Source: a virus. Taken from it: a DNA stretch of 64,000 bases. Positions 6,707-62,279 of the stretch are shown here, in pieces. Location of the stretch: positions 1 to 64,000 of IMG/VR virus record IMGVR_UViG_3300009149_000025; one strand, 5' to 3'. Every line of letters starts with the position of its first letter. The first letter of the stretch is position 1. The notes below the pieces were generated by a model. That model was not told the DNA's origin. It saw nothing but the letters and a program-made list of their open reading frames with translations, and searched no databases. The translations under genes were made by a program, and so were the position numbers.

Positions 6707-6964
6707 TTAACTTCTGTTTAAAAATCTTTCTATATTTTGACAAAGTGGAGATTTTCCAGATATTCTTTCGTTAGTATCTTGACAATTAAATCCTACACCT
6801 TGATAGTATCTTAGTACTATATTTTCATTTATTTTAAATCCAGAATTAGATAATAAGAACTCTAGTGATTCTTCATCATAATTTTCATTCATATAAATAA
6901 TGTTTTTACTAACATTTTTATCTAAATTTCTATCAACTAATTTTTGTAATTTATCTTTTATCAT
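6707..6964 (-). CDS. Small unknown protein
   Basis: 85 aa, starting inside the end of the upstream minus-strand gene (14-nt overlap), which indicates a two-gene operon read leftwards. It contains two Cys (FNCQDTNE and PLCQNIE) but no full zinc motif. Its function is not recognised. Confidence 0.5.
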   Translation of the reverse strand: MIKDKLQKLVDRNLDKNVSKNIIYMNENYDEESLEFLLSNSGFKINENIVLRYYQGVGFNCQDTNERISGKSPLCQNIERFLNRS

Positions 6965-9798: not shown

Positions 9799-11316
9799 AT
9801 GATTATAGATAATAAATGTAAGATTAAAATCACGAATAGGAATAAAAAATATTTTAAATCTAAAGGATATTTATGTGATAATGAATACGAAAATGTAAAT
9901 CCAAATGATTTGAGTAATGGGAGTAATATTAAAATTACGGTTAAATGTGATTATTGTGATAATATAAAAAATATTTCTGTAAAAAATTATAATTCTGTAA
10001 AAAGTAAAAATAATGATGAATATTATTGTTCTAAATGTTGGAATAAACGATTAAAAAAAATAATGATAGATAAATATGGAGTAGATATTCCATTAAGAAA
10101 TAAAAAAATACAAGAAAAACAGAAAAATACATTATATAATAATTATGGTGTTTATCATCCATCTGAAAGTAAATTATTGAAAGGTAATTTAAAAAATATA
10201 TTAATTGATAAATATGGTGTAGATAATGTGTCAAAAATTGATACTGTTAAAATAAAAAAAATAAAATCCTTAAAAAAATCTTCTTTATTTAGATTAAAAT
10301 CTAAATATAATGAAATAATAGATTTTGATTACGATACAAAGATATTGAAATGTGTATGTATTAATCATAATTATAATATATCATATGATTTATTTTACAA
10401 TAGAAAGGAATTAAATACTGTAATATGTACAATATGTAATCCTATTAATAAAAATATATCTGGTTTAGAAATCCAATTACAAGATTTTATTAAAGACAAT
10501 TACACTAATATTATATTAAATGATAGACATTTAGGTAAAGAACTTGACATTTATGTTCCTGATTTAAAACTTGCATTTGAATTTAATGGTTTATATTGGC
10601 ACAATGAAATTAATAAAGAAAATAATTATCATTTAAATAAAACTGAATTATGTGAAGAACAAGGAATTCAATTGATTCATATTTATGAAGATGATTGGTT
10701 ATATAAACAAGATATTGTTAAATCTGTGATATTAAATAAATTAGGTAAATCTGTAAATAAGATATATGCCAGAAAAACAGAAATCAGAGAAATAACTGAT
10801 AATAAAATAGTTAGAGAATTTTTAAATAAAAACCATCTTCAAGGATTTATTGGTGGTAAAGTAAAATTAGGTTTATATTATGATAATAAATTGACTAGTT
10901 TAATGACATTCGGAAAAAGAAGGGTTGTAATGGGTAAAAAGGGTTCAGAAGAAGGAGAATATGAGTTATTAAGATTTTGTTCCAAACTAAATACAAATGT
11001 AGTTGGCGGTGCAAATAAATTATTTAAACATTTTGTTAGGAATTTTCAACCAAAAGAAATAACAACATATGCTGATATGTCATGGAGTAATGGTAATTTA
11101 TATGAACAATTAGGGTTTGAATATCAGGGCAAAACAAAACCTAATTATTATTATATAATTGATGGAATTAGACATTATAGATTCAACTACAGAAAAGATA
11201 AATTAATGAAAGAAGGATATTCTAAAGAAAAAACTGAAAAACAAATAATGTTAGATAGAGGAATTTATAGAATATATGATTCTGGTAATCTAAAATTTAT
11301 ATATAATATAATATGA
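9799..11316 (+). CDS. Large free-standing homing endonuclease (Vsr/EDxHD-like)
   Basis: 505 aa. The N-terminal half has zinc-ribbon-like CDYCDN and CSKCW pairs (residues ~50-80) and two repeated DKYGVD modules of the kind used for DNA recognition by phage nucleases. The core from residue ~240 reads GKELDIYVPDLKLAFEF, NGLYWH, matching the PD-(D/E)xK/Vsr-like catalytic arrangement (D..E..H). A C-terminal domain (LQGFIGGKVKLGLYY, TTYADMSWSNGNLYEQLGF) resembles a GNAT-like region often fused to this nuclease type. Its TGA overlaps the next ATG. It is likely a mobile gene inserted between phage genes. Confidence 0.7.
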   Translation: MIIDNKCKIKITNRNKKYFKSKGYLCDNEYENVNPNDLSNGSNIKITVKCDYCDNIKNISVKNYNSVKSKNNDEYYCSKCWNKRLKKIMIDKYGVDIPLRNKKIQEKQKNTLYNNYGVYHPSESKLLKGNLKNILIDKYGVDNVSKIDTVKIKKIKSLKKSSLFRLKSKYNEIIDFDYDTKILKCVCINHNYNISYDLFYNRKELNTVICTICNPINKNISGLEIQLQDFIKDNYTNIILNDRHLGKELDIYVPDLKLAFEFNGLYWHNEINKENNYHLNKTELCEEQGIQLIHIYEDDWLYKQDIVKSVILNKLGKSVNKIYARKTEIREITDNKIVREFLNKNHLQGFIGGKVKLGLYYDNKLTSLMTFGKRRVVMGKKGSEEGEYELLRFCSKLNTNVVGGANKLFKHFVRNFQPKEITTYADMSWSNGNLYEQLGFEYQGKTKPNYYYIIDGIRHYRFNYRKDKLMKEGYSKEKTEKQIMLDRGIYRIYDSGNLKFIYNII

Positions 11317-12282: not shown

Positions 12283-13089
12283 ATGAAAAGGTTTAATAAA
12301 TTTATTAATGAAATTAATTTTGATGATTTCGAAGACGAATTTGATTTCGAAGACGAATTTGATTTCGAAGAAGAAGAATTTGATAGAGTTTATGGGTATA
12401 CCTGTCAATATAGTAAACGTGATATATTATCATCCAGAGTTACGAATAAAGAAATTAAATATAAAGAATTAAAAACTTTTGATTTAAGTTATGAAAATAT
12501 TCCATTTACAATAGAAATGAACACAAGTGGTTTTGCTGGTTCAGATGCTCCTATTATTTTAGTGAAATTTATAATAGATAGAGCAGTAGTTGATGCATTA
12601 GAAGATGATGAATGTATAGGATTTAATAGTACTTATGGTGGTAATAAAAATATAGATTTGAGAGCAGGTTCATATGTTAAAAAGTATGGAATGCATAAAT
12701 TAATACCTGTTTATAAGAAAGCATATGAATGGGTGTATGATGATGAATTTCCTTTTAAACATATAAAAGAGTCAAGACAAAGTGTTAGAGTTTATAGAGA
12801 AGATTGGAAAAAATTTGTAGATATGTTATCTAATGGAAAATGGGGACAAACTAAATTTGGTAAATATGTTAAAAGTAAAAAACCTTTATGGTGTGCTCAT
12901 CACGACTGGAATGAAGTCACATATGATGATTTTGAAAGATATTATCCCAATAAAGATTATATATATGTTTATGGATTTAGTGGATGTTTAATACCTCATT
13001 ATACCAAAAAATATAGACATCATTATGGAAAATATTATGTAGATTTTAAAGACATTTTAAGCCATGATGCTACTTATAAAAAATATTGA
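12283..13089 (+). CDS. Acidic-leader protein, unknown
   Basis: 268 aa starting MKRFNKFINEINFDDF, a T4-capsid-targeting-like leader followed by three repeats of the acidic-aromatic unit DFEDEF. After residue ~40 comes a globular domain with no motif I recognise; it has CAHHDWNEV and YVYGFSGCLIPHY segments near the C-terminus. Similar acidic-aromatic stretches follow the leader in at least six other proteins in this window. A head-packaged role is inferred from the leader only. Confidence 0.55.
   Translation: MKRFNKFINEINFDDFEDEFDFEDEFDFEEEEFDRVYGYTCQYSKRDILSSRVTNKEIKYKELKTFDLSYENIPFTIEMNTSGFAGSDAPIILVKFIIDRAVVDALEDDECIGFNSTYGGNKNIDLRAGSYVKKYGMHKLIPVYKKAYEWVYDDEFPFKHIKESRQSVRVYREDWKKFVDMLSNGKWGQTKFGKYVKSKKPLWCAHHDWNEVTYDDFERYYPNKDYIYVYGFSGCLIPHYTKKYRHHYGKYYVDFKDILSHDATYKKY
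12325..12378 (+). repeat. 18-bp tandem coding repeat
   Basis: gatttcgaagacgaattt occurs twice exactly (12325-12342, 12343-12360) and a third diverged copy follows. It encodes the DFEDEF acidic-aromatic units and suggests expansion by replication slippage. Confidence 0.85.
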
Positions 13090-13553: not shown

Positions 13554-14807
13554 TTAAACGACATACCAATCATCACATATATACCAGGGATAAAATTTTA
13601 TTATTTTCATTATTTTTACACCTTGTTTATCTTTATCAATCATTGATACTGTATGATCATATTTCCAAGTAGATGTTAATTTTCCTTCTGTATATATTCC
13701 ATCATTATTTTCATTGAATGTTCTACGGTATGTTTTATTTTTACATCTCACAATATCACCAACTTTAATTTCATTTGGTTGTTCTTCTTCGAAGTCAAAA
13801 TCTTCATCATTAAAGTCAAAACTCTCTATAATTATATCATCAACACAATCAAATGGTATAAACCAATCATTATCATCAAAGTCGAATGATTCATTAATTA
13901 TTTTATATAAATCAAATTTTTGTACATACCACCCATGTCCATATGGACAACCATATCCAGTTGCGTGATTCATTTCCCTATCATTCATTATACTATCTGG
14001 TAAATTTTTATCAAAATTTACATATATATTCCAACTACTACGGATATTTAAAATTGTTCCTTTACCATATTTTTTATGAAATACTCTTTCTCCAACTTTG
14101 AATTTAGTCCCATAAGGTGGTTTAATAATCTTTGGTTTTTTAAATTCTTCTTCATCCCAATCAAAGTCATCATCATCAAAATCAAATTGTTCATTAAATT
14201 TTATTATTCCATTTTCTTTTAGTGGAACATATTTATCAACTTTTCTTTTATATAATTTACCATCATATTTCATGAATTTATATTTCCCATCAAGATTATA
14301 AACGATATAATAACTATCAGGTTTCAATTCCGAAAAATATTTCATATTTTTAAATTGGTTTTCATATGCTAAATTTATAAAATCAATATCAACATTTCTT
14401 TCTCTTTTTTTATTTTGTTTTAAAGATAAATCTTTAGTGCCCATTAGATGAATGAATAAAATAGTATAATTATGTTCTTTTGATAAATTTGTAATATTGG
14501 TAATATTATCTTTTTGTGTTCCTGTTGTATCATATATGAATGATTTTCCATATTCTATAAATAGTTTCAATCTTCTAACATTTAATTCTGATGTACCTTC
14601 TTTATATCTATTAGGATCTTTTGTAAATACTAATGAAACATCATCAGTTGAAAATATTTTAATATTTTGATTTTTATTTAAAATATAGTTTTTAGCGAAT
14701 GTTGATTTACCAATACCAGGTGCCCCCAATAAAATTATACCTAATTTATCATTTCTTGTTATTTCAGGTATGGGATCATTTTTTGAATGTTCATATATTT
14801 GATGCAT
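13554..14807 (-). CDS. P-loop kinase fused to acidic-motif/SH3-like modules
   Basis: 417 aa. Residues 1-190 are a P-loop kinase: GAPGIGKSTFAKN near residue 28, a FSTDDVS site, YDTTGTQKD and an RER arginine patch, as in polynucleotide-kinase or zeta-toxin-type enzymes. The C-terminal half contains three copies of an acidic-aromatic motif (FNEQFDFDDDDFDW, INESFDFDDNDW, IIESFDFNDEDFDF), each followed by or next to a short VGERVFHKKYGKGTI or VGDIVRCKNKTY segment like an SH3-type barrel. The motif is the same as the N-terminal leader of other proteins, so this gene looks assembled from leader-bearing proteins. Confidence 0.6.
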   Translation of the reverse strand: MHQIYEHSKNDPIPEITRNDKLGIILLGAPGIGKSTFAKNYILNKNQNIKIFSTDDVSLVFTKDPNRYKEGTSELNVRRLKLFIEYGKSFIYDTTGTQKDNITNITNLSKEHNYTILFIHLMGTKDLSLKQNKKRERNVDIDFINLAYENQFKNMKYFSELKPDSYYIVYNLDGKYKFMKYDGKLYKRKVDKYVPLKENGIIKFNEQFDFDDDDFDWDEEEFKKPKIIKPPYGTKFKVGERVFHKKYGKGTILNIRSSWNIYVNFDKNLPDSIMNDREMNHATGYGCPYGHGWYVQKFDLYKIINESFDFDDNDWFIPFDCVDDIIIESFDFNDEDFDFEEEQPNEIKVGDIVRCKNKTYRRTFNENNDGIYTEGKLTSTWKYDHTVSMIDKDKQGVKIMKIIKFYPWYICDDWYVV

Positions 14808-18647: not shown

Positions 18648-18842
18648 ATGGTTTTAAGATTTAAAGAATTCCTAAATGAACAAGAAGATAAATCTAAAGA
18701 AGAAATTCAAAAATTAGATAAAGATGTTAATGATACAACTATTGACCTGAAGAAAAAACAGATAGAAATCAACAATAGAAAAAAGGAATTACAAAAGAAA
18801 GAAGAAGAATTCCTAAAGAAAAAGGAATCTGAAACTAAGTAA
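18648..18842 (+). CDS. Small coiled-coil protein with capsid-targeting-like leader
   Basis: 64 aa. MVLRFKEFLNEQED is nearly the T4 MKTYQEFIAE pattern, followed by ~50 residues of unbroken charged heptads (KKKQIEINNRKKELQKKEEE). The form is that of a small scaffold-core or internal head protein. It lies 18 nt after the 615-aa gene and 62 nt before the tape measure. Confidence 0.55.
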   Translation: MVLRFKEFLNEQEDKSKEEIQKLDKDVNDTTIDLKKKQIEINNRKKELQKKEEEFLKKKESETK

Positions 18843-23575: not shown

Positions 23576-24445
23576 ATGAATAAAGATGGAATTTCTGCAG
23601 AAGAAATGAAAGAATTGGTAATTGAGGATTCACAAGGCGAATTTGATATTGATAATACAGATTATGAAATTACAACATCTGATGATGTTTTTGATTTTGA
23701 TTTTGATTCTGATAAAGAATTCGATATCGAAACTGCATTCGATTTTGTTAAACATTCTTCTAAACCTAAAGAAACTAAGGAATTAGTAGAAAAAAAGGAA
23801 GCTGATAATGTTGTTAAATCAACGGCAGAAACATTTCTAAGTCCAGAATATGTAGAATTGATGGATAATGGATATGCTAAGTTACTTGCAATTTTGAAAA
23901 AATATGAGGTGAATTCAGATTATGTTAAAAGTATGTCAGAAGCTGATAAAGATAAAATCTATATCATTGCTGAACATCTTTTTAACGAATATCAAAAGAA
24001 TTTGAATAAAATGGATTTCAATTTTGAATTAACTCAAGATGAATGGAAATTCATGATAGATGTTCTAAAACATAAATTAGAATATGATCAGAATGAAATT
24101 TTTCAAATGGAAGAAGTTAGGAAAGAATATTTAGATGGAGCAGAAGAAATTCAAAAATCTATGCCGAAAGATGTAGAAGAAATTCCAACTATCATTAATG
24201 TTAATAACATAATCATTCTTTACCACTTAATTTCTAAGTATAAAGTGAAAGGTATAAATAAACAACATTATGCATTCCTAACACTTTTAACTAAAATTGG
24301 TGAAAGAATTAAACTATTTAATGCTTATACTGTATGGGTTCAACGTTTAAGTGAAGATTTCCAATTATGGGGTGGAAGCTTATCAGTTGATGATAGTGTG
24401 GTAAATGGTAGTGTAATTCAACCAGAAAATCCTACTGATGGATAA
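23576..24445 (+). CDS. Helical acidic protein, unknown
   Basis: 289 aa. The N-terminal ~60 residues are acidic-aromatic (DDVFDFDFDSDKEFDIETAF), like the acidic stretches after the leader in other proteins here. Residues ~90-270 are predominantly helical. The stop overlaps the next start by one base (TAATG). Its position upstream of portal-like and capsid-like fragments suggests an assembly role, but this is inference. Confidence 0.5.
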   Translation: MNKDGISAEEMKELVIEDSQGEFDIDNTDYEITTSDDVFDFDFDSDKEFDIETAFDFVKHSSKPKETKELVEKKEADNVVKSTAETFLSPEYVELMDNGYAKLLAILKKYEVNSDYVKSMSEADKDKIYIIAEHLFNEYQKNLNKMDFNFELTQDEWKFMIDVLKHKLEYDQNEIFQMEEVRKEYLDGAEEIQKSMPKDVEEIPTIINVNNIIILYHLISKYKVKGINKQHYAFLTLLTKIGERIKLFNAYTVWVQRLSEDFQLWGGSLSVDDSVVNGSVIQPENPTDG

Positions 24446-24633
24446 TGAACAATATTGATTCATATGTTTCAATAATTGATGAATTGAAAAGGGTGTATTG
24501 GAACGGAAGAACTCATACACCTTTTCTTTTACCAATTGAAATGAAAATTTGTGCTCAATCAATTGGATTAGAATTGGTAAGTGTAAAACCAATGAAATCA
24601 CCTAATTATAAAATAAATTACAACTATGGATAA
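24445..24633 (+). CDS. Small unknown protein
   Basis: 62 aa, overlapping the preceding gene by 1 nt and the next by 8 nt, so it is translationally coupled on both sides. It contains one helix (SYVSIIDELKRVYW) and a short strand pair. No motif was recognised. Confidence 0.5.
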   Translation: MNNIDSYVSIIDELKRVYWNGRTHTPFLLPIEMKICAQSIGLELVSVKPMKSPNYKINYNYG

Positions 24634-32007: not shown

Positions 32008-33075
32008 ATGAAGATAATGAAAAAGTTTGGCAACTATATAAAAGAGGATGTGGAAACATGGGACGATGCTATCGATGATATTCCAGATTTCGATGATGAA
32101 GAAACTGGAACAGAAAAGAAAGCAGAAAGACCAAAACCTAGAAAGAGACAAAAGCCACCTTCAGTTTCTATGAGAAATCCTAAAAAGGAAGAAGAAGTTG
32201 TAGAAGATGAAGTCAAAACTGATGAAGATGGTAATGTAATAAAACCAAAGAAGAAACTTGTAAGAAGTGAAGAAGGTAATGTTAAGGTGAGATTCACTAC
32301 AAAACTTAAAAAAATTTTTAAGACTCTACAGGCACGAAAGGATAGTAAAGATATTGCCGATGCATTTATAGCTAGTTATAGAAAACTTGGAAGTGATATA
32401 TCATTTTTGAATATGGTTGATGACGTAAATGACCAATTATCTTATTTGCCAAGAAATAGAATTGTTGGGATGGAAAGAACTAAGAGTGAAAAAACTGGTA
32501 AAATGGTTCTTAATTCTTATGGTAGTGATCAAAGACAACAAATGAGATTAGGTAGAATCATTAATAGATTATGGCCTGATAAATTTAATGCAAGACAAGT
32601 TGAATTGTTTGTTAATGAATATAAAGGTGAACATGATATGATGACTGGTAATATCGATATTGAATTGATTCATGGGAAAGATATTTATGAATGGTATCAA
32701 CAAAAAAAATATGCAGGTGGAGGCACATTGGGAAATTCTTGTATGAGAGGAGCTGGTAAACAACAAATGGCCATGTATACCGATAATCCACAACAAATAA
32801 GAATGGCAGTATACAGAAGAGCTGGAAAATTGGAAGCAAGAGCACTTGTTTGGACAACAGATCATGGTATTTTTATGGATAGGATTTATTATACAAAAGA
32901 TCATTTGCAGAATGCGTTTAGAAGATATGCGGATAGAAATGGTTGGATGTATAGGGAACAAAATCCTAGACCACCACATTTGACAGTTAGATTACAAAAT
33001 CAAGTTAGAGGACAACACCCATATTTAGATACATTTAGATTGACTCACAATGGTGCAAGAGCAGAAGCTTTTTAA
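32008..33075 (+). CDS. Leader-bearing protein, SCM family paralogue A
   Basis: 355 aa from ATG 32008 (GTG 31999 and ATG 32017 are alternatives). The N-terminus MKIMKKFGNYIKEDVETWDD resembles the capsid-targeting-like leaders, followed by a charged linker rich in K, R, E and P. The C-terminal ~200 residues are related to the protein at 54839: G-G-T-L-G-N-S-C-M-R, M-Y-T-D-N-P, R-A-L-V-W, F-M-D-R-I-Y-Y and Y-L-D-T in the same order. The conserved Cys could be catalytic. The fold is not recognised. A packaged enzyme is inferred. Confidence 0.55.
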   Translation: MKIMKKFGNYIKEDVETWDDAIDDIPDFDDEETGTEKKAERPKPRKRQKPPSVSMRNPKKEEEVVEDEVKTDEDGNVIKPKKKLVRSEEGNVKVRFTTKLKKIFKTLQARKDSKDIADAFIASYRKLGSDISFLNMVDDVNDQLSYLPRNRIVGMERTKSEKTGKMVLNSYGSDQRQQMRLGRIINRLWPDKFNARQVELFVNEYKGEHDMMTGNIDIELIHGKDIYEWYQQKKYAGGGTLGNSCMRGAGKQQMAMYTDNPQQIRMAVYRRAGKLEARALVWTTDHGIFMDRIYYTKDHLQNAFRRYADRNGWMYREQNPRPPHLTVRLQNQVRGQHPYLDTFRLTHNGARAEAF

Positions 33076-33089
33076 AATAATATTTTTAA

Positions 33090-33827
33090 ATGAAGTCTTA
33101 TATTAATTTTGTTAATGAACAAAAGTATACCCATAAAGAATTAAATAAAAAATTTTGGACAGATTTTGAATTTGATGAAGGTGTTAAAGAAAAATTGGTA
33201 GAAATTGCTAATGATTTCTATGATACTCTTGATAAATTTGATTTAGATATAGATGATATACATTTAACAGGTTCAATATCTAATTATAATTATCATCCAG
33301 ATTCAGATTTAGATGTTCATATATTGGTGGATTTTGATGAATATGATGGTGATAAAGATATTTTGGTTAGTATGATACAATCAAAGTCTTTTATTTGGAA
33401 TTTAAAACACGACATTAATATTAGAGGAGCTGATGTTGAATTATATGTTCAAGATAAAAATGAAGAACATATATCATCAGGTATATATTCGTTACAAAAT
33501 GATGAATGGATTAAAAAACCATCATATAGTGATCCAGATGTGGATGATGATGACATTAATCTAAAATATAAAAGATGGGTATTTGAAATAGATGAAATTG
33601 CTAAATCTGAAGACGATGAAAATTTATCTGAAGAAGATAAAAGAGAACGTTTTGAAAGATCTGAAAAACTTAAAAAGAAATTGAAAAAGTTTAGAAAAGA
33701 AGGATTAGAAGGTGTAGGTGAATATTCAATTGAAAATTTAACTTTTAAGAAATTAAGAAATGATGGGCATATAGAAAAATTATACAAATCAAGTGTTGAA
33801 TTTTATGATTCAATCTTTAGTCAGTAA
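33090..33827 (+). CDS. Nucleotidyltransferase-fold protein with capsid-targeting-like leader
   Basis: 245 aa. The leader is MKSYINFVNEQ. Then LTGSISNYNYHPDSDLDVHI at ~59-78 gives the G-S and D-x-D of a minimal nucleotidyltransferase, and GADVELYVQD supplies a third acidic residue. Such enzymes transfer nucleotides to RNA, protein or small molecules. The C-terminal ~70 residues are a charged helix. Its leader suggests entry with the DNA. Substrate unknown. It overlaps the convergent protease gene by 18 nt. Confidence 0.65.
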   Translation: MKSYINFVNEQKYTHKELNKKFWTDFEFDEGVKEKLVEIANDFYDTLDKFDLDIDDIHLTGSISNYNYHPDSDLDVHILVDFDEYDGDKDILVSMIQSKSFIWNLKHDINIRGADVELYVQDKNEEHISSGIYSLQNDEWIKKPSYSDPDVDDDDINLKYKRWVFEIDEIAKSEDDENLSEEDKRERFERSEKLKKKLKKFRKEGLEGVGEYSIENLTFKKLRNDGHIEKLYKSSVEFYDSIFSQ

Positions 33828-38595: not shown

Positions 38596-40794
38596 TTATT
38601 GTTTTTTGTACCAATTATCTATATTTTTTATACCTAAGTTATAAGTTCTACTATTAGATAATTTTAAATTTCCATCATCATCAATTTTAGCTCCTTTGTT
38701 ATAAATTCTTTTGTAAGAATCACTTAATATGCTTATTGTTCCATTATCTCTTTTATCTGAATAATCAAAAATTAATGGTTTATAATCATCTGGTAATCCA
38801 TTTTCGATATAGTCTTCAATCGATTCTTTGTAATGTGGGTGTCCAAATACCGATGTTAGGTTTACTAAGCTCATCACCATATCATCATGTCCTGATTGTG
38901 ATTTATATGTTACATCCCCAGATGGTGTTTCTTTTTTGGCAAATGATTTTAATTCTATTATATTGGAATCATTACTAAGAGATAAATTATCTTTTATCAT
39001 ATTATCTTGAAACTCTTTTATGTTATATTTTTTATCTCTACCTATTAATAGTCCTTTTTTAACTATTTTATCTTTTTGATTGTGTTTAAATCTCAAGAAA
39101 ACATAATCACCATAATCGTTTTCGCCTTCAAAAACATATGGCATAGATTGGAAAAGTAGATTTCCTAAATTTTTATTCATTTCAACTACACATTTAACTT
39201 TTTCAGGATCAAAGAATTCAAATACCAACATGTAAAGAATATGGGCAAGTTCACTTATTTTATAAATATTTGATCTCCATAAACCTATTTGTTCCAATTT
39301 AAAGAAATCGTAAAGATTGTGTATGGATTCTTTGTTATTTTCAATCCATTCTTTATCTTTTGGTAATAATCTAAATATATTTATAACACTATAATCTAAT
39401 CCTAATCCTTCTGCTAAATCTATACCAATAAAGATATGATAATTTTTTTGATTACCCATTTCAAATATTTCTGGACTATCGTTTACAAAATGTAAATTGT
39501 TATAAGGGATTGGTAATTTTCTGCTAAAATTATCGATTTCGATATGTTCATATTTTTTAATATTTTTAGTCATTTGTTGGAATTTAACAGTGTCAAATAG
39601 TGTTTTATCGTCTGTTAAAAATTCTAATCCAAATTCCTGTTTGAAGAAACTTTCACCACCAATAAGTTTTGTTTGTTCTTCTTCCCATGTGCTGATTTTA
39701 CACAATTCTGCTAATGGAATTTTTTTACCATCATTCATAGGAATCATAAGTTTTCTAATATCGGTAACTCCTGCTTTTGGATATGGTATAGTTTCTTTTT
39801 CGTCTTTATAAAATTTGATGAATATTGTAACATCACTATTTACAGTTTCTTCATATAATTTATACCCTAAAGATTTTAAATAATTTTTAATAAATGTTCC
39901 TGTTATTCCATATTGTGAATATTTTCTAATTTTGGTTTTATTTAATAATATTTTAGTATCTCTTCGTCCATTTTTTTCATACCAATATACTCTCATAGGT
40001 TTATATCCATTGTTATCATCATCATCTTCTGGTTTTTCGGCACCTGTTATTAATTCCCAAAATAAGTTAAATCCATCAGGTGTTGATGATATAATAATTT
40101 TAGAATCGTTAATGGACGACACAACAGGAACAACTTCAGCATAATATTTCCTTATTATTGTATCAGGTACTTTGGCAAATTCATCAAGATATAGTAAATC
40201 AATTGTAAAACCGATAGCTGGTTCAGCTGTTCTTGCTTCTGTTTGAATTCTTGAACCATTTTCAAGTGCAATTGCACTTTCATTCCAGTTCGTAACTCCC
40301 TCTTTTAAGAAAAATGGTAAAAGCTTGTAAATCCCTTTTATTTTGTTTATAATTTCCTTTGTGGTTTTAGATTTATTTGCAACAATCATTACACCCTTAT
40401 TACTATGAAATAAAACAAACCATAAAATATAGATGGCTGCCGATACAGTTTTACCAGTTTGACGACTTGCCATTAAAATGGAATATCTATTATCGTTAAA
40501 TAATTTTATTATTTCTTTTTGATATCTTCTTAATTTTATTTCACCAATTGTACCATCTTCTCTTTTAATTTTACAATATTTTTGGGCGAAATAAAAAACA
40601 CTTAATTTACATTTAATATATTCTTCTCTTTCAGCCTTAGTCATAGCAAATGAAATTCCACCTTTTCTAACTCCCCTATTTCTACTGTGCCATAGAATTT
40701 CGGTTCTTTTTAATTTAAGAGCATATTTTTCTTTCTGTTGGATTTCATCTACCTTTTTGGTAGTCATTACATTACTTTCTTGGTTATCAGCCAT
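38596..40794 (-). CDS. Terminase large subunit (T4 gp17-like)
   Basis: 732 aa. ATPase: Walker A MASRQTGKTVSAA (~108-120), Walker B IDLLYLDEFAK (~198-208) with catalytic Glu, and ISSTPDGFN coupling motif. Nuclease: FIGIDLAEGLGLDYSVINIF (~455) with the first Asp, and SGHDDMVMSLVNL near the C-terminus with the last acidic residues. It packages DNA into the prohead and cuts it. Length is larger than T4 gp17 (610 aa). Its ATG overlaps the stop of the receiver gene by 1 nt. Confidence 0.93.
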   Translation of the reverse strand: MADNQESNVMTTKKVDEIQQKEKYALKLKRTEILWHSRNRGVRKGGISFAMTKAEREEYIKCKLSVFYFAQKYCKIKREDGTIGEIKLRRYQKEIIKLFNDNRYSILMASRQTGKTVSAAIYILWFVLFHSNKGVMIVANKSKTTKEIINKIKGIYKLLPFFLKEGVTNWNESAIALENGSRIQTEARTAEPAIGFTIDLLYLDEFAKVPDTIIRKYYAEVVPVVSSINDSKIIISSTPDGFNLFWELITGAEKPEDDDDNNGYKPMRVYWYEKNGRRDTKILLNKTKIRKYSQYGITGTFIKNYLKSLGYKLYEETVNSDVTIFIKFYKDEKETIPYPKAGVTDIRKLMIPMNDGKKIPLAELCKISTWEEEQTKLIGGESFFKQEFGLEFLTDDKTLFDTVKFQQMTKNIKKYEHIEIDNFSRKLPIPYNNLHFVNDSPEIFEMGNQKNYHIFIGIDLAEGLGLDYSVINIFRLLPKDKEWIENNKESIHNLYDFFKLEQIGLWRSNIYKISELAHILYMLVFEFFDPEKVKCVVEMNKNLGNLLFQSMPYVFEGENDYGDYVFLRFKHNQKDKIVKKGLLIGRDKKYNIKEFQDNMIKDNLSLSNDSNIIELKSFAKKETPSGDVTYKSQSGHDDMVMSLVNLTSVFGHPHYKESIEDYIENGLPDDYKPLIFDYSDKRDNGTISILSDSYKRIYNKGAKIDDDGNLKLSNSRTYNLGIKNIDNWYKKQ

Positions 40795-41258
40795 TACATG
40801 TTAATTGATTTTTTAATATTATCAAATTTTTTATTTGATATAATTTTTTTGGAACTATATAAATAGTCTTCTACTTTCTTTTTTATGTTATTATCAATGG
40901 GTTTTATGATATAATCAATTGAACCAATGTTGTATCCTTTTATTTTATCTTCATTTGTTTCATATATTGCTGTTATAAATACAATAGGAGTATCTATGTT
41001 TTTACCATATTTACCATATTTTATCTTGGTAGCTAATTCATACCCATCCATTCCATTCATTTGGATATCTAACAGTAGTAGAGAAAAGTCTATTTCTTTA
41101 AGTAATTTTTCAGCACCAAATGGATTATAAGATTTATATATTTTTACATCTTTGATTTTTTCAATGTACCCTTCTAATAAAGTAACATTATCTACTGTGT
41201 CATCAACGATGAGTATATTATGTGTTTTTTTGTTAAATATTTTTGATAAACATTTCAT
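40794..41258 (-). CDS. Response-regulator receiver domain protein
   Basis: 154 aa, a complete stand-alone receiver domain: ILIVDDTVDN (acidic pair), FSLLLLDIQMNGMDGYELA (phospho-acceptor Asp), IVFITAIYE (Thr) and DYIIKPIDNN (Lys). No output domain follows. It would be phosphorylated by a histidine kinase, either of the host or an unseen phage one. Its stop overlaps the terminase start by 1 nt, so it is coupled to packaging-gene translation. A phage receiver of this kind is unusual. Confidence 0.88.
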   Translation of the reverse strand: MKCLSKIFNKKTHNILIVDDTVDNVTLLEGYIEKIKDVKIYKSYNPFGAEKLLKEIDFSLLLLDIQMNGMDGYELATKIKYGKYGKNIDTPIVFITAIYETNEDKIKGYNIGSIDYIIKPIDNNIKKKVEDYLYSSKKIISNKKFDNIKKSINM

Positions 41259-42634: not shown

Positions 42635-43300
42635 TTAAGATACAATAGTAATAGTTATACCATTTTCTTTTAAGATAACCTTTATATCATCATTAGATAG
42701 TATGTCTTTAAATACTTCATCTTTATTTTCAATGTTTTTCAGTATCCAATTTTGTCCATTACTAACATAGATATATTTTTTATCGCCTTTAACAAGTTCA
42801 ATTGTTTTTGAACTTAGTTTTTCATAGAAATTGCTAAAATTACCGTTTATTTTATAGATTTTAATTTTATCCCTATTCCATTCACCATTTATATCTTTTG
42901 TTTGGAATATAACATATAAAGGATCATCCAATTTTTCTAACTTATCCATTTTTCTATTTTCTCTCTTATGAATTAATAAATATTTAATATCATCAATTAT
43001 GTAAGTATCATAATCTTTAGTATTTTGTAATTCACTTATGAATAGTTCTTTCTTTGATAAATTATCATTGAAATCTGGATTGTCTCTTAATTGTTCTAAT
43101 GTGTAATTGTCATCATATTTTTTTATATCAAAATTGAAAGGTTCTCCTACAAAATCAACTGGTTCTGCATTTACTGTATTCATTAACATATCAGAATCAA
43201 CAACAATACTTTCGAGTATTTCTGCATCAGCTACTAATGGTATGTTTTCAATTTCTTCTAAGAAATTTTCAAATAAAAATATATTGTAATTTTTTAACAT
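42635..43300 (-). CDS. Leader-bearing protein, unknown
   Basis: 221 aa, MLKNYNIFLFENFLEEIENI at the N-terminus, with L-F-E-N-F and L-E-E sites like the leader plus protease-site pattern. The body is alpha/beta with DYDTYIIDDIKYLLIHKREN and KYIYVSNGQNWILKN. No recognised motif. Confidence 0.45.
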   Translation of the reverse strand: MLKNYNIFLFENFLEEIENIPLVADAEILESIVVDSDMLMNTVNAEPVDFVGEPFNFDIKKYDDNYTLEQLRDNPDFNDNLSKKELFISELQNTKDYDTYIIDDIKYLLIHKRENRKMDKLEKLDDPLYVIFQTKDINGEWNRDKIKIYKINGNFSNFYEKLSSKTIELVKGDKKYIYVSNGQNWILKNIENKDEVFKDILSNDDIKVILKENGITITIVS

Positions 43301-43314
43301 TTTGGTTTTTTGTT

Positions 43315-43746
43315 TTATAGATTATTTATAATATTATCATGATCTCTATCACGGATAAAATTTTTCTTTTTTTTATAAAGTTTTTTAATCATTTTTAATA
43401 TTTTTGATGAATATGGTATTTTCGGTGTAATGATTTCATTGTCATCAACAACATCATCCCATTCTTCATCCTCTAAATCTTCATTGTCTTTTATTAAAAT
43501 TTTAACATTTGTGTATCCGTGTCCCATTGTTATATTATCACTCATTGTTACTATATATAAATATAAATCATCATTATCTATTTTGAAATCCCATGTATGG
43601 TTTGGGTTGTGATGCACGTTATAATCTATATTATCACTTTCGTAAATATCTGTCAGTTTTTTATGTATTAAATCTATAACTTTATTAGTTTTCTTACTAT
43701 TAAATATTCTAATACCCCATTCTTCATATAATTTTAAATGTTTCAT
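43315..43746 (-). CDS. MKHLKLYEE-leader protein 1
   Basis: 143 aa starting MKHLKLYEEWGIRIFNSKKT. The first nine residues are identical to four other proteins in this window. The body has a DIYESDNIDYNVHHNPNHTW segment, strands and an acidic stretch (EDLEDEEWDDVVDDNE), ending in a basic helix. Unknown function. Part of a leftward group. Confidence 0.5.
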   Translation of the reverse strand: MKHLKLYEEWGIRIFNSKKTNKVIDLIHKKLTDIYESDNIDYNVHHNPNHTWDFKIDNDDLYLYIVTMSDNITMGHGYTNVKILIKDNEDLEDEEWDDVVDDNEIITPKIPYSSKILKMIKKLYKKKKNFIRDRDHDNIINNL

Positions 43747-43776
43747 AATGTTTTTATCATTTTTTTAATATTTTAT

Positions 43777-44112
43777 TTATAATACTTTTCTAATTCCTTT
43801 ACTGTGTTCTCCATGTATAACACAGACATCAATTGGTAATATTATTTCTTTATTATCATGATCTTTAATAACAGCAAACATCATTCCTGATTTACTTCTT
43901 GATCCAATCATTTTTTGTATTTTGAATTTATAACCGATTAATTTATATAATTGTATTTTTCTATTTGGATCTGTTATATTGTACATATAATCCACTAAAT
44001 TTGGTTTAATAACTATAGTATCACCTTTTTTAAATGGTATGTATTTTTCTTCTTCATCAAAGTCATCTTCATCCCATTCATCGAAATTTTCATATAATTT
44101 TAAATGTTTCAT
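43777..44112 (-). CDS. MKHLKLYEN-leader protein 2
   Basis: 111 aa. MKHLKLYENFDEWDEDDFDE carries leader plus acidic-aromatic motif, then a small beta-barrel-like domain beginning FKKGDTIVIKPN. Such leader-plus-barrel architecture is repeated at 13554-14807. A phage-type promoter element abuts the start. Confidence 0.5.
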   Translation of the reverse strand: MKHLKLYENFDEWDEDDFDEEEKYIPFKKGDTIVIKPNLVDYMYNITDPNRKIQLYKLIGYKFKIQKMIGSRSKSGMMFAVIKDHDNKEIILPIDVCVIHGEHSKGIRKVL

Positions 44113-44115
44113 GAT

Positions 44116-44132
44116 GTTATATATTAAAAAAC
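44116..44132 (-). promoter_or_regulatory. Phage-type promoter candidate
   Basis: Minus-strand GTTTTTTAATATATAAC lies only a few nt upstream of the ATG at 44112, suggesting a nearly leaderless transcript. Confidence 0.45.
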
Positions 44133-44175
44133 AAAATCTAAAAATTGTAATATAAATAAAAAATAAACTATAATT

Positions 44176-44814
44176 ATGGAAAGTGCGTTTGATTTTTTCG
44201 ATAAAATGTTTTGTATCAATTTAGATGAAAGAACAGATAGGTGGGAAATTTGTAAAAAGGAATTTGAAAAGGTTGGTATATTGGATAAGGTGGAAAGATT
44301 TTCTGCTGTTAAAGATGTTGATGGAAGAATAGGTATTATTAAATCTAATTTGGAAATTGTTAAATATGCCAAGGAAAATAAATTAAATAATGTTCTTGTA
44401 TTTGAAGATGATGTGGAATTTATAACTGATGATACAGAAGGTAATTTGAAAAAATCTTTATCACAAGTTGGGACATTAAAATGGTCACTTTTTTATCTTG
44501 GAGCAAATACACATAATAAACTTCTTAAAATAAAACCAAATTTAATTTTAATTAAAAATTCATATGCTGTTCATGCAATGGCTTATAATAAAGTGGTTTA
44601 TGATAATTTTATAAGAAAGTATGAAGGAATGGATAGAATAACAAAGCATTCTGATATTTTAGATGTTTATTTGGCTGAACAAATTCAATCTAAATATGTT
44701 TGTTTGATGACTAATCCAATGTTGGCAACACAACGAAACGATTATAGTGATATAGAAAAAAGAGAAGTTAATCAGAATTACATTGAAGAAAGATTTAAAA
44801 AGAACATAAAATGA
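44176..44814 (+). CDS. Glycosyltransferase family 25-like protein
   Basis: 212 aa. MFCINLDERTDRWEICKKEF at residues 10-30 and VLVFEDDVEFI at ~74 match the GT25/LPS-glycosyltransferase pattern (I-N-L-x-x-R-x-x-R and E-D-D). These transfer sugars such as galactose; in a phage the acceptor could be DNA, a virion protein or host surface. A second glycosyltransferase-like gene lies at 45820. Confidence 0.75.
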   Translation: MESAFDFFDKMFCINLDERTDRWEICKKEFEKVGILDKVERFSAVKDVDGRIGIIKSNLEIVKYAKENKLNNVLVFEDDVEFITDDTEGNLKKSLSQVGTLKWSLFYLGANTHNKLLKIKPNLILIKNSYAVHAMAYNKVVYDNFIRKYEGMDRITKHSDILDVYLAEQIQSKYVCLMTNPMLATQRNDYSDIEKREVNQNYIEERFKKNIK

Positions 44815-45037
44815 TTTTAGAAAGAGTGTATTTTTTTATGATTTAAAAGATTATGATGAATTATTAAATAGTATTAAATTTAATGATAAAATGAACAATA
44901 TAGATAGGGATTATATTTTATATAAAGTAAAATTATCAGATAGAAATATTATTCATACTGATCCAAATTATATAAATGGTTTTTACACAACTGATAATAT
45001 TAGTCCATTCGATATTGAAATAATAAAAATAAATTAG
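44811..45037 (+). CDS. Small protein requiring a -1 frameshift (or broken by one)
   Basis: An ATG at 44811 overlaps the previous TGA as ATGA. The frame MILERVYFF closes at TAA 44844-44846. In the -1 frame a long open continuation runs from 44837 to the TAG at 45035-45037 (YDLKDYDELLNSIKFND and so on to FDIEIIKIN). The junction is a T7 run, T-TTT-TTT at 44831-44837, exactly in register for -1 slippage. Either programmed frameshifting produces a ~75-aa protein, or a 1-base deletion broke the gene. Function unknown. Confidence 0.5.
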
Positions 45038-45047
45038 AAAATCGTTG

Positions 45048-45419
45048 TTATTTACTATTTACAAATTCATCTCCATTAATTATTTCATACCCGTCACTAT
45101 TTAATTCCTTGAATCCGTTGACACGATCTACACTATATTGATTATCTGACCATATTATAACTGAGTCACCACCACCATCTAATAAATCATATCCATCGTT
45201 ATCTAATAAATCGGTAAATTTATGGAGATTATTTAATCTTAAAAATTTAATATAATAAATTTTACCTGTTACATATCCACCACCAGGTTTATTTATATCA
45301 TCAATGTATTCAGTAATATAATCTGTATATATTTTTCTATTTATAGTTTCATCTTCTTCTTCAAAGTCGAAGTCATCGTCATTAAAATCGAATTCTTCAT
45401 ATAGTTTTAAGTGTTTCAT
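45048..45419 (-). CDS. MKHLKLYEE-leader protein 3
   Basis: 123 aa. The first 24 residues (MKHLKLYEEFDFNDDDFDFE and more) are almost identical to the next gene upstream, while the bodies differ, so only the leader was duplicated or conserved. The body holds YIDDINKPGGGYVTGKI and LLDGGGDSVIIW. Unknown function. Confidence 0.5.
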   Translation of the reverse strand: MKHLKLYEEFDFNDDDFDFEEEDETINRKIYTDYITEYIDDINKPGGGYVTGKIYYIKFLRLNNLHKFTDLLDNDGYDLLDGGGDSVIIWSDNQYSVDRVNGFKELNSDGYEIINGDEFVNSK

Positions 45420-45421
45420 AG

Positions 45422-45763
45422 TTATTTTATTATATCCATATTCATAAATTCATCATATTTAATATTACTATTATGATTTTTTCCAAATCCTCTTGTCCAA
45501 GATGTGTGTGTCCATGAAGGTAAAAAACAATTCCATTTTTCTCCATCATAATTAGTAGAATTTTCATCATTTAAAATATCACTCTCACCAAGAATTCTAA
45601 ACCCTAATCCTTTTAATTTATTAACAATATCAATAGCTTCTTCATTTGTATTGAAAAAGATTATTCGTTTTAACAATTCATCTTTAGTTAAAGTATCTTT
45701 TTCTTCAAAATCAAAATCATCATCATTAAAGTCGAATTCTTCGTATAGTTTTAAGTGTTTCAT
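45422..45763 (-). CDS. MKHLKLYEE-leader protein 4
   Basis: 113 aa from the ATG at 45763; the upstream in-frame ATG at 45787 would place a promoter element inside the gene. It starts MKHLKLYEEFDFNDDDFDFE like its neighbour. The rest is a small alpha/beta domain with IDIVNKLKGLGFRILG and a Trp-rich loop (WNCFLPSWTHTSW). Unknown function. Confidence 0.5.
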   Translation of the reverse strand: MKHLKLYEEFDFNDDDFDFEEKDTLTKDELLKRIIFFNTNEEAIDIVNKLKGLGFRILGESDILNDENSTNYDGEKWNCFLPSWTHTSWTRGFGKNHNSNIKYDEFMNMDIIK

Positions 45764-45768
45764 ATATT

Positions 45769-45780
45769 GTATATATAAAC
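45769..45780 (-). promoter_or_regulatory. Phage-type promoter candidate
   Basis: Minus-strand GTTTATATATAC, 5 nt upstream of the ATG at 45763. Confidence 0.4.
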
Positions 45781-45819
45781 TTTTCATTTTTATTTTAATA
45801 TATTTTAAAAAATTGAATT

Positions 45820-46605
45820 ATGATAAATATTATTATATTTAGCCGCGATAGAGGTTCACAATTAGAACTTCTATTAAGAAGTATGAAATTACATTTTAAA
45901 GAATGGGATAAACAAAAAATATATATATTATATACATTCTCTAATTATTTATTTGGTAAAGGATATGATATAACAAGAGAATTACATCCTGAGTTTAACT
46001 ATGTTAAAGAAAAGAATTTTAAACAAGATTTATTATCTTTAATGGATAAAAGTAAGAAATTTAGTACATTTTTAGTTGATGATATAATTTTTAAAGAAGA
46101 TTTTTCGATTGAAGATGAAAAAATGAAAATGTTAGAAACAGATAGTAACATTTTATGCTTATCTTTAAGATTACACCCAAGATTATCTTATTGCTATCCC
46201 GCTCGTTGTAAAATGGTTAGTCCATCACCAGATAAGAATAATAAATTTAATTGGATAGGGAAAACTGGTGATTATGGTTATGCGATGTCTTTGGATTTTC
46301 ATGTTTTTAGAACAAATGAAATACTTTATAGATTACAACATTTAAATTATTCTAATCCAAATACATTAGAATCAAATTTGGCAGCCATGCCAATTAAAAA
46401 ACCTTTTATGTTAATGTATGACAAATCTATCATAGTTAATAATCCAGCTAATAAAGTTCAAAATTTTAATCAAAATGTTCATGGAAATATATCAGCGGAA
46501 TATATCAACGAAGAATACTTAAAAGGTAAAAAAATATCATTAGAAAATTCAAAAGGATTAGAAAATATATCCTGTCATCAAGAAATCGACATAATATTTG
46601 AATAA
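45820..46605 (+). CDS. GT-A-like glycosyltransferase
   Basis: 261 aa. NIIIFSRDRGSQLELLLRS at the N-terminus is a nucleotide-sugar-binding start, FSTFLVDDIIFKEDF near residue 85 contains the D-x-D-like acidic site, and CLSLRLHPRLSYCYP follows. The pattern suits bacterial GT-A enzymes. With the GT25-like gene it may decorate the virion or modify bases. The acceptor is unknown. Confidence 0.6.
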   Translation: MINIIIFSRDRGSQLELLLRSMKLHFKEWDKQKIYILYTFSNYLFGKGYDITRELHPEFNYVKEKNFKQDLLSLMDKSKKFSTFLVDDIIFKEDFSIEDEKMKMLETDSNILCLSLRLHPRLSYCYPARCKMVSPSPDKNNKFNWIGKTGDYGYAMSLDFHVFRTNEILYRLQHLNYSNPNTLESNLAAMPIKKPFMLMYDKSIIVNNPANKVQNFNQNVHGNISAEYINEEYLKGKKISLENSKGLENISCHQEIDIIFE

Positions 46606-47648: not shown

Positions 47649-48134
47649 TTAAAATGGTAAGTTTTCTTCATCGTCAAAGTCATCATCATCCATATCTTCT
47701 TCTTGTGATATATTGTCCAATTCATCTTTGTATCCTTTTTGAGAATCTAGATATACAATATACAAGTCTTCTGGTATGTGGAATACAATTTCATCACCTT
47801 CTTCTTTCATAGAAGCTGTTGTTGTGTCATCATCGCTGATTTCTTCCATAAACCATTCTTGAAATGATTCAAAGTCAGTTGGTAAATCTAATTCACCAAT
47901 ATCGTCCCATGAATCAGTTTTTTGATTATATACTATTTCTAATAAATCATCGATTTCTTCATCTTCTGAATCGGTTTCTATTTCACTTTTGAATTCTGTT
48001 TTATCATCATCACCATCAAAAAATACATCTTCTGTATCAATATCCGAATCTGGTTGAATAGTTTCAAATTCGTCTATTTCTATGTTTTCGTTTATAAAGT
48101 CTTTAAAATTTTTAATTTTTTTCATAATTTTCAT
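47649..48134 (-). CDS. Acidic protein with capsid-targeting-like leader
   Basis: 161 aa. KKIKNFKDFINENIEIDEFE opens the protein; F-K-D-F-I-N-E closely follows T4 Y-Q-E-F-I-A-E. Nearly the whole chain is acidic, including a C-terminal DDDDFDDEENLPF. A strongly acidic, leader-bearing protein could be a DNA mimic or internal head component, but this is inferred. Starts at 48134 or at the internal ATG of MKKIKNF. Confidence 0.55.
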   Translation of the reverse strand: MKIMKKIKNFKDFINENIEIDEFETIQPDSDIDTEDVFFDGDDDKTEFKSEIETDSEDEEIDDLLEIVYNQKTDSWDDIGELDLPTDFESFQEWFMEEISDDDTTTASMKEEGDEIVFHIPEDLYIVYLDSQKGYKDELDNISQEEDMDDDDFDDEENLPF

Positions 48135-58261: not shown

Positions 58262-59365
58262 ATGAAGGCGGTAATTGGATTAGGATTCGGTGATGAAGGT
58301 AAAGGTTTAGTTACTAATTATTTAGAAGGATCATTGGTGATTAGATATTCAGGTGGACAACAAGCTGGACACAATGTTGTTTTGAAAGATGGTAAAAGCC
58401 ATATCTTTTCAAACTTCGGTTCAGGTACTTTGAAAGGTATACCAACATATTGGTCAAAATTTTGTACAGTTGATCCAGTTGGTATGATGAATGAACTAAA
58501 TGATTTATTGGAAAATGGGTTCAATCCCGTTTTGTATATCGATGGTGATTCTCCAATTACCACTCCATATGATAAGTATCACAATAGTAATAATGTAGCT
58601 GATTTAAATCATGGTACATGTGGTGTCGGTGTCGGTTCTACATTTAATAGAGAAGAACATTTTTACCATTTAACATTCAGTGATATCTTTAATTCGTGGA
58701 TATTAGATACTAAATTAAATAATATTGCTAAATATTATGGATATTTGTCTCATGAATTAATAGAACAAGTTGAAGAATTTTTAATTATGTGTGATGAAAT
58801 GGTCAAAAGTGGAAATTTTCATTTAGTTTATGGTATTCCAGATGGTTTTGATGAAGATGGATATGTTTTTGAAGGTTCACAAGGGTTGTTATTAGACCAA
58901 CACTATGGATTTTTCCCACATGTTACAAGATGTAATGTAGGAACAACAAATATTTTAGAAATGGTTACTGATAAATCTTTCGAATTATTCTTGGTGACAA
59001 GAGCTTATCAAACAAGACATGGTAATGGTCCAATGACTAATGATAATATAGATTTTGATGTAAATAACCCAAATGAAACAAATGTAGATAATGAATATCA
59101 AGGTAAATTTAGAAAATCAATTCTTGATGTATCATTGTTAGAATATGGTATAAATAAAGATAAGTATATTAGAGAAAATCCTAAAAATTTAGTAATTACT
59201 TGTCTGGATCAAGTTGATGAATATACATTTACATATGATGGGTTGATGGTTTTATGTGATGATGAAGATGAATTTGTTAAAAGAATTTCAGATATTCTAA
59301 ATATAGATAGTGTGTATATAAGTAAATCAAACGTTAGTGAAAATATAAAAAAATGGAATAAATAA
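58262..59365 (+). CDS. Adenylosuccinate synthetase-like enzyme (PurA/PurZ family)
   Basis: 367 aa. VIGLGFGDEGKGLV at 3-16 is the P-loop with the catalytic Asp; YSGGQQAGHNVV replaces the canonical G-G-N-N-A-G-H; HGTCGVGVGSTFN, FEGSQGLLLDQHYG and TRHGNGPMTNDN follow in family order. It is shorter than bacterial PurA (~430), as in archaeal and phage forms. PurA joins IMP and Asp; PurZ acts on dGMP in 2-aminoadenine DNA synthesis. The retained Asp in GDEGKG argues for PurA-like chemistry. A terminator follows. Confidence 0.8.
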   Translation: MKAVIGLGFGDEGKGLVTNYLEGSLVIRYSGGQQAGHNVVLKDGKSHIFSNFGSGTLKGIPTYWSKFCTVDPVGMMNELNDLLENGFNPVLYIDGDSPITTPYDKYHNSNNVADLNHGTCGVGVGSTFNREEHFYHLTFSDIFNSWILDTKLNNIAKYYGYLSHELIEQVEEFLIMCDEMVKSGNFHLVYGIPDGFDEDGYVFEGSQGLLLDQHYGFFPHVTRCNVGTTNILEMVTDKSFELFLVTRAYQTRHGNGPMTNDNIDFDVNNPNETNVDNEYQGKFRKSILDVSLLEYGINKDKYIRENPKNLVITCLDQVDEYTFTYDGLMVLCDDEDEFVKRISDILNIDSVYISKSNVSENIKKWNK

Positions 59366-60124: not shown

Positions 60125-60802
60125 ATGAAAACAGTACTAATAGAAATTAGGGACATGGAAGGTGGTGATGATGCTAAGCTTTTAGTCCAAGAAATGAAAA
60201 ATATTTATCTAAAATCAATAAGAATAAATGATTTTAGAATTACATCTATGGATGAAAAATATGGTTAGTTAACCATTGAAGTCTGTGGTGATAATGTAAA
60301 AAAATTCTTCTCAAAAGAAATAGGTGGACACAGATTTCAAAGAGTTCCACCAACCGAATCAAAAGGTAGAGTACACACTTCTACAATTTCCGTATCAGTT
60401 TTAGATAGTAAGTCAGAAGTATCTGATAATCTAAATATGGATGATATTAATGTTTTTTATACAAAAGGAACAGGACCTGGTGGACAACATAAGAATAAAA
60501 CACAATCATGTGTTAATATGGTACATATACCTACAGGTATAAAGGTAATGGTAGATGGGAGAAATCAACACCACAATTACGATGGAGCTTTAAAAGAATT
60601 AAAAAAAAGATTGAAAGATAAGAATCAATCGGATTATGATAAAGGATATTTTGATGAAAAAAGAAATTAAATCGGTATTCAAAATAGAAGTAATCGTAGA
60701 AGAACTTACAATTTTAGAAATGGAATAGTAACAGATCATTTAACTAATAAGAGTACAACAGTGAAGAATGTATTAAAAGGAAAAATTGATTTATTACATT
60801 AA
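60125..60802 (+). pseudogene. prfA-like: RF1-like release factor gene with in-frame UAG and UAA
   Basis: One frame of 226 codons from ATG 60125 to TAA 60800-60802, interrupted only by TAG 60266-60268 and TAA 60668-60670. Part 1 (VLIEIRDMEGGDDAKLL) is the start of RF domain 2. Part 2 has the RF1 stop-recognition tripeptide PPT (RFQRVPPTESKGRVHTS) and the catalytic G-G-Q (GTGPGGQHKNKTQSCVNM). Part 3 is the C-terminal RSNRRRTYNF and GIVTDH. RF domain 1 is absent. GGQ and P-x-T are intact. It is either recoded (autoregulated) or recently inactivated. Confidence 0.8.
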
Positions 60803-61988: not shown

Positions 61989-62279
61989 TTAATTTTTAAA
62001 ATGGTTTTTAAGTAGGGATAATCTCTCTTTTAGAACAAATATCATTTTTTCTTTAGTAACTTCTAAAGTTGGGTGAACTTCTTCATTTTCCCAATAACGA
62101 ATAGCCTTATTTATTAGTTTTAATTCTGATTCATAATTTTCTTTTTCGAAGTTTCTAAACCATGTTTTGTTTGATTTGTATTTAATTCCTTCTGGTATAT
62201 CAAATTCCTCTTCATCAAAATCATCATCGTCCCATTCACCGAAATCTTCAAATTCTTCGTATAGTTTTAAATGTTTCAT
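61989..62279 (-). CDS. MKHLKLYEE-leader protein 5
   Basis: 96 aa. MKHLKLYEEFEDFGEWDDDD is leader plus acidic-aromatic motif, then a short helical body (ESELKLINKAIRYWENEEVH). It lies far (16 kb) from the 43-46 kb group with the same leader, so the tag is not explained by local duplication alone. A phage-type promoter abuts it. Confidence 0.55.
   Translation of the reverse strand: MKHLKLYEEFEDFGEWDDDDFDEEEFDIPEGIKYKSNKTWFRNFEKENYESELKLINKAIRYWENEEVHPTLEVTKEKMIFVLKERLSLLKNHFKN

Follow-up and report, generated by a model that had tools for sequence, protein, structure and literature searches.

The window analysed here comprises positions 1 to 64,000 of the IMG/VR virus record IMGVR_UViG_3300009149_000025 (64,000 of 69,824 bases, probably a fragment), and five of its genes encode proteins that begin with the same short leader, MKHLKLYE[EN]. 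The conservation of this N-terminal tag on unrelated protein bodies, its distribution among related viruses and its resemblance to the leaders of T4 internal proteins suggest that it is quite probably a capsid-targeting sequence (CTS) of the T4 type. The T4 CTS consists of the first 10 residues of IPIII and can bring foreign proteins into the head; its residues 4 and 7 serve targeting and its residues 8 and 10 processing (PMC9026906). By comparison of sequences, we infer that the tagged proteins would be targeted to the prohead, cleaved, retained in virions and injected.

Four of the tagged genes are clustered at 43315–45763 and one is located at 61989, as an earlier note on this DNA had reported; all are on the minus strand, with the tag ATG codons at 43746, 44112, 45419, 45763 and 62279. 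The earlier note also described an acidic-aromatic continuation of most tags, which is present in four of the five proteins, the exception being the product of the gene 43315–43746 (143 aa, leader MKHLKLYEEW at 43717–43746), which reads MKHLKLYEEWGIRIF... and has no acidic-aromatic part. The other cargo candidates are the proteins of 111 aa (43777–44112; leader and acidic-aromatic segment, MKHLKLYENFDEWDEDDFDEEE, at 44047–44112), 123 aa (45048–45419; leader and segment at 45354–45419), 113 aa counted from the tag ATG (45422–45763; leader and segment at 45698–45763) and 96 aa (61989–62279; leader and segment at 62199–62279). The gene at 45422 has an in-frame ATG upstream, at 45787, and its tag starts at 45763, 24 bases inside the longest open reading frame (ORF). 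A degenerate DNA pattern of the tag matched four of the five window copies, with none expected from 100 shuffles; the copy at 43777 reads ...YEN and was not matched. PHROGs and Pfam searches with the five tagged proteins gave no match above the cut-off. A single-sequence structure model of the 43777 product (mean predicted local distance difference test score, pLDDT, 59) has a weakly SH3-like body and tag residues 1–24 mostly below 50, and its comparison with the PDB revealed no significant match (best E 0.02).

The genes at 45048 and 45422, said previously to be near-identical over 24 residues, do have an abrupt boundary and are dissimilar from codon 24 onward; the exact identity is shorter, covering residues 1–21, followed by an E/K pair and then D. 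A pairwise BLASTP comparison matched the tag and a weak tail and nothing else. Codons 1–21 contain six synonymous and no non-synonymous differences, and five of the six lie in codons 9–21, beyond every pattern used for searching. Because the tag codons of this pair differ by synonymous changes only, the sequences indicate that selection acts on the tag peptide, and the pattern is unlike that of a recent DNA copy. The shared start could instead be a translated nucleic-acid feature, namely a translation-initiation or recombination element, an explanation to which the frequent AT-rich starts are favourable, as are L020 or L033 and L056, which have common upstream DNA and leader and different residues after it, as DNA exchange predicts. 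It is nonetheless highly improbable, as the codons vary freely while the residues are fixed, both in the 21 codons of this pair and in codons 2–9 of the five window copies, where the proportion of synonymous differences (pS) is 0.48 and that of non-synonymous differences (pN) 0.04.

Searches in related viruses clearly indicate that the tag is borne by many different bodies. The large terminase of the window (38596–40794, minus strand) has its nearest named match, with 53% identity, in the 735-kb phage LR756501, which yielded tblastn matches for 57 of the window record's 105 predicted proteins. The sister contigs G010 and G011, from one metagenome sample, are largely syntenic with the window (the G010 terminase is 68% identical), and G012 and G013 from the same sample have a few of the window genes and the tags. 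The pattern MKH[LF]K[LF][FY]E[DE] was found in 70 stretches in viral contigs. In 72 of 73 tag matches the frame stays open for 29 residues or more, and in the remaining one for 20. The 158 tagged proteins, composed of the pattern matches and the tags from nine gene-called records, fell into 117 body groups (blastp 1e-3, residues 27 onward), and their alignment (A1) contains no conservation past about column 13; the positions left unconstrained by the broader pattern stay skewed (e.g., H3 in 75%). A Pfam scan of representatives of 115 of the 117 groups, the other two straddling piece ends, gave 35 families, including ART-PolyVal, Nudix, lysozyme, ankyrin, LRR and acetyltransferase, and each of the 25 families listed was matched by a single member. 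In LR756501 and G004, 81 leadered proteins gave 52 families, among them PPK2, TonB_C, DeoC and lysozyme; of the 25 listed, two had two members and the others one.

The bodies also differ between close relatives at the same place. The interval from 42635 to 44176, whose flanking orthologues are both 74% identical, contains two tagged genes in the window and one in G010, with an unrelated body, and the interval from 44176 to 45820 contains the genes at 45048 and 45422 in the window and no gene in G010. The genes at 44176–44814 and 45820–46605, which are on the opposite (plus) strand, alternate with the tagged genes and are glycosyltransferase-like by eye; they are adjacent in G010.

The proteins could be ordinary paralogues, i.e. 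one duplicated family with a slowly changing N-terminus and bodies diverged past recognition. Some body groups are truly related and small groups of true orthologues exist among the tagged proteins; several bodies appear SH3-like by eye (VGDxV...GxV) and may share this fold, as one model weakly suggests, and tagged genes are adjacent in G002 and G006 more often than after shuffling. A single-family origin is, however, largely refuted because the bodies carry unrelated Pfam folds (ADP-ribosyltransferase, Nudix, lysozyme, radical SAM, methyltransferase, PPK2, ankyrin and others); the abrupt boundary at the DNA level and the replacement of bodies at one locus between conserved flanks also argue against it, and we regard it as unlikely. 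No co-variation of leader and bodies was seen. The proposal of the earlier note that the leader is a portable tag under selection is well supported by the synonymous-only change, the number of body groups and the syntenic replacement of bodies with the tag kept.

The relatives also connect the tag to T4. T4 IPII and IPIII begin with MKTYQEFIAEA and IPI with MKTFKEF; a leader of the sister contig G013, MKTYGEFINE, is identical to the T4 CTS at 8 of 10 residues. In an alignment made by eye, Y4, F7, I8 and E10 of T4 stand opposite F7, F10, L11 and E13 of the G002 leader MKHIKLFENFLNE, and the three-residue spacing of Y7 or F7 and F10, W10 or I10 is shared by the five window tags and the majority of relatives. 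The same alignment suggests that the window tags retain the targeting pair (T4 residues 4 and 7) and lose the processing pair (8 and 10). Many leaders end with F[LIV]NE, in place of which the five window tags have KLYE. The earlier note had suggested a possible second class of leader, which the relatives do not support; the G002 leaders merge both forms (MKHIKLFENFLNE, MKHLKLFEGFLNE and MKRIKLFEAFINE), and such intermediates, together with MKTYGEFINE, join the two classes to one T4-like leader.

The leader is enriched over chance in these genomes. The loose motif [FY]xx[FLIYW][ILVM]xE, starting within the first 14 residues and set against internal segments of equal length from these proteins, was found in 9 of 105 proteins of the window's own record (0.87 expected), 20 of 317 in four sister contigs (3.2) and 65 of 1010 in LR756501 (7.9, an excess of about 57 proteins), as well as in 42/717 (6.4), 19/319 (2.7), 8/144 (1.3) and 11/387 (4.2) proteins of G002, G004, G015 and G006, respectively; part of these members are chance matches. 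Shuffling residues 2–26, which keeps the N-terminal composition, gave similar expectations, and crAss001, taken as a control lacking the protease discussed below, had 0/104. The strict tag was counted five times in the own record, in 30/317 proteins of the sister contigs, 44/717 of G002 and 39/387 of the 209-kb record G006, four times in G004, six times in G015 and not at all in LR756501, with shuffled means of at most 0.08 in all these sets. The tag in G006 is of the MKYIKTFE type and has no acidic module, and the tagged bodies there look ankyrin-, leucine-rich- and SH3-like. The union of loose and strict matches comprises 14/105 proteins in the own record, 49/317 in the sister contigs, 65/1010 in LR756501, 65/717 in G002, 22/319 in G004, 10/144 in G015 and 50/387 in G006.

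Many of the tag-bearing relatives encode head proteins of the kind that would go with a T4-type CTS. An S77 protease (PF03420, gp21) was found in 12 of the 29 tag-bearing IMG/VR records examined (G001, G002, G004, G007, G009, G015, G017, G018, G019 and G022, with G003 and G008 detected by a profile of 11 relatives), including 7 of the 10 records of at least 170 kb; PF03420 scored above the cut-off in G002, G004, G015, G017, G019 and phage PTm1. The catalytic-region motifs GE[LFM][DE]HP and SSR align with T4 gp21, H71 and S126/S127 are invariant across 11 S77 sequences, and the protease matched PDB 5JBL with an E-value of 1.9e-5. It is part of a longer protein, as in PTm1, where the annotation reads 'prohead core scaffolding protein and protease', and each of the 12 protease-scaffold proteins contains 15–25 hydrophobic-x-glutamate (hxE) sites of the form hxE[ASGN], compared with 4.8–7.6 in shuffles. 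The gp23-type shell protein (PF07068) was above the cut-off in six of nine and in 6 of 20 tag records, and both proteins are present in LR756501 and PTm1. The cut position in the shell propeptides (marked by a slash) is assigned from T4 gp23 by analogy. On this basis, the propeptides would end with SINE/NA in five proteins, SLNE/S in two and QMNE/NV in LR756501, and with KLYE/EA in G015 and KLYE/DA in G019, the same letters as in the tag. MAFFT did not place FLTE/A, which we take to be the cut position of T4 gp23, opposite the SINE/N sites of the relatives, the correspondence being by eye only. Alternatively, the leader could sort proteins to a destination other than the prohead, for instance the host membrane, a replication complex or a compartment built by the phage; the acidic-aromatic part is reminiscent of the acidic, partner-docking tails of single-stranded-DNA-binding proteins, which would favour this reading. 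Its probability is low, as the leader corresponds to the T4 CTS both in its residues and in its position, ends with shell-propeptide letters in two relatives and is found in records encoding the T4-type protease.

Several observations weigh against a T4-type CTS. The cultured relatives PTm1, PAU and MaF61, considered as candidate laboratory models, bear the protease without enrichment of the leader (loose motif in 4/300 proteins with 2.4 expected, 0/287 and 0/188, respectively; 2/70 in the part of T4 used), and so the protease alone is no predictor of the leader. Neither the own 69.8-kb record nor the four sister contigs, all of which are fragments, yielded a gene for the protease or gp23, and 17 of the 29 tag-bearing records have no S77 match. 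Among the three of at least 170 kb without it, G005 and G006 show no Terminase_6N match either and may therefore lack the head region, but in G016 a terminase was matched weakly. The window cargos have no site homologous to T4 residues 8 and 10, and the G006 tags, MKYIKTFE or MKYLKRFE, have no hydrophobic P3, so that a T4-like cut at E8 is uncertain in both. The conservation of the first eight columns of alignment A1 is partly by construction, since the proteins were chosen with tag patterns. A search for a late-promoter-like motif upstream (five patterns, six genome sets) revealed only weak and inconsistent differences between tagged and untagged genes, and this element was therefore not used.

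The acidic-aromatic part is a separate, lineage-specific module. The record contains 10 such stretches, compared with 0.38 in shuffled proteins; the module is common in the window record and sister contigs, whereas LR756501, G002, G004 and the parts of PTm1 and T4 used have none or about as many as expected by chance. Its core pattern occurs 29 times in the own record and sister contigs, 20 times N-terminally and nine times internally, the cases coming from related members, so that the counts are not independent. A glutamate stands at position -3 of all 20 N-terminal cores, with a hydrophobic residue two residues further up in 19; among the internal cores, the glutamate is present in 8/9 and both residues in 6/9, against a background of 7.4% for the glutamate and 2.6% for the two together. 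Since the module starts three residues after the hxE glutamate both N-terminally and internally, it is probably the mature N-terminus left by hxE cleavage. This position places it behind the predicted cut and outside the sorting signal, of which the earlier note had considered it a part; a docking role, the other option of that note, may apply. The internal examples occur in larger proteins: in the 417-aa AAA_33 kinase at 13554–14807 (minus strand), an acidic-aromatic run comes after an hxE site at two places (FNE/QFDFDDDDFDWDEEE and IIE/SFDFNDEDFDFEEE, the runs being located at about 14142–14198 and 13779–13832), and G012 has LNE/SIDFDDWDYEEEEP. The simplest reading is that some of these, including the kinase, would be polyproteins. 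In G013, neighbouring genes in a run read MKYIKLFEEIDFDDFDWEEEEP and similar, and every body is different; a single-sequence structure model of the two-unit protein of G013 was poor (mean pLDDT 42).

Taken as a CTS, the leader, which has the form MK-h-K-h-[FY]-E and in many cases continues to ...F-[LIV]-N-E, would bind the scaffold core during head assembly, by which the protein bearing it would be built into the prohead. The gp21-type prohead protease would then cut after the hxE glutamate and release the mature cargo, which would remain in the head with the DNA and probably be delivered at infection. The acidic-aromatic segment ([IF]DFDD[FW]DWEEE-like), starting right behind the predicted cut, would form the mature N-terminus, and proteins consisting of two or three such units with hxE sites between them may give rise to several cargos on cleavage. 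Because the leader alone would suffice for entry, unrelated bodies could acquire it, with rapid turnover of bodies. Perhaps, and this wider suggestion is a tentative one, the huge phages of this group load their heads by means of one label with a fast-changing arsenal of tens of proteins per genome, which in this lineage are partly polyproteins cut in the head into effectors that share an acidic-aromatic N-terminus with a second function (for example docking, tail passage or separation of the cargo from the packed DNA). If so, a short leader would flag, among the hundreds of uncharacterized genes of a huge phage, the virion cargo that enters the host first; the question of what is delivered early and how the phages cope with first-line defences would become a candidate list, and effectors would be recruited by the gain of about ten codons.

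Other leaders are found elsewhere in the window. The product of 42635–43300 (minus strand, 221 aa, leader MLKNYNIFLFENFLEE), a possible core component, has a sister-contig orthologue that is 74% identical and leadered too, and an acidic protein of 161 aa (47649–48134, minus strand) has the leader MKKIKNFKDFINE, to which the first ATG would add MKI. The leader MKRFNKFINE of the protein at 12283–13089 (plus strand) is followed at once by a long acidic-aromatic run, joining the two leader classes in one protein. On the plus strand there are also a P-loop protein with the leader MKNFKEFMNES (9263–9766; weak AAA_33 match), a probable nucleotidyltransferase-fold protein with the leader MKSYINFVNEQ (33090–33827; weak match) and proteins with the leaders MVLRFKEFLNEQ (18648–18842) and MKIMKKFGNYIKED, the latter followed by an acidic stretch (32008–33075); the leader MLQKYKNYLNEN is encoded at 6951–7286 on the minus strand. 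The ORF 24445–24633 (YVSIIDE), which contains the loose motif, is probably a chance match and was excluded from the leader list.

The gene 58262–59365 (plus strand) belongs to the adenylosuccinate-synthetase family (PHROG 1211, named for 2-aminoadenine-type synthesis), a hint that the phage DNA may contain a modified base; a similarly annotated gene adjoins the terminase in Flavobacterium phage MaF61. The window terminase is adjoined by a gene (40794–41258, minus strand) for a protein that by eye resembles a stand-alone response-regulator receiver (ILIVDDTVDNV...LLLLDIQMNGMDG) and has an orthologue in G010. The stand-alone 77-aa protein encoded at 60437–60670 (plus strand) contains the motif GPGGQHKNK, like the catalytic domain of peptide chain release factors, and an HNH/homing endonuclease (9799–11316, plus strand) has relatives in all four sister contigs.

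A search of open-licence PMC papers found no report of a leader of this kind in huge phages or in those of Bacteroidota. The kind is known from T4, but these papers contained neither the long-leader variant nor the acidic-aromatic module, nor carriers on this scale or the likely polyproteins. The T4 internal proteins are described as very diverse, with the CTS alone conserved (PMC3012670), and they include anti-restriction and host-range factors (PMC3012670, PMC9391042). The likeness to the CTS of T4 IPI, IPII, IPIII and Alt lies in an N-terminal leader of about 8–13 residues with spaced aromatic residues and, in many leaders, an hxE end on otherwise unrelated bodies, and in the gp21-type protease and gp23-type shell protein of the relatives. 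Unlike T4, with its handful of carriers, these genomes have tens of them, as well as the longer MKHLKLYE-type variant, an acidic-aromatic module behind the leader, internal repeats of site and module, and a protease fused to the scaffold. In phage P1, the first 30 residues of DarB similarly suffice for the entry of a reporter into the head (PMC9024508); however, the Dar proteins gave no consensus in the authors' BLAST, and the region is not tag-like across unrelated bodies. The giant phages SPN3US and phiKZ (PMC5694885) differ in that several propeptides exceed 100 residues and the protease belongs to the S80 group. They are similar in that a gp21-related protease takes N-terminal propeptides off head proteins and ejected proteins, and in that two proteins start with the same sequence although their bodies have diverged.

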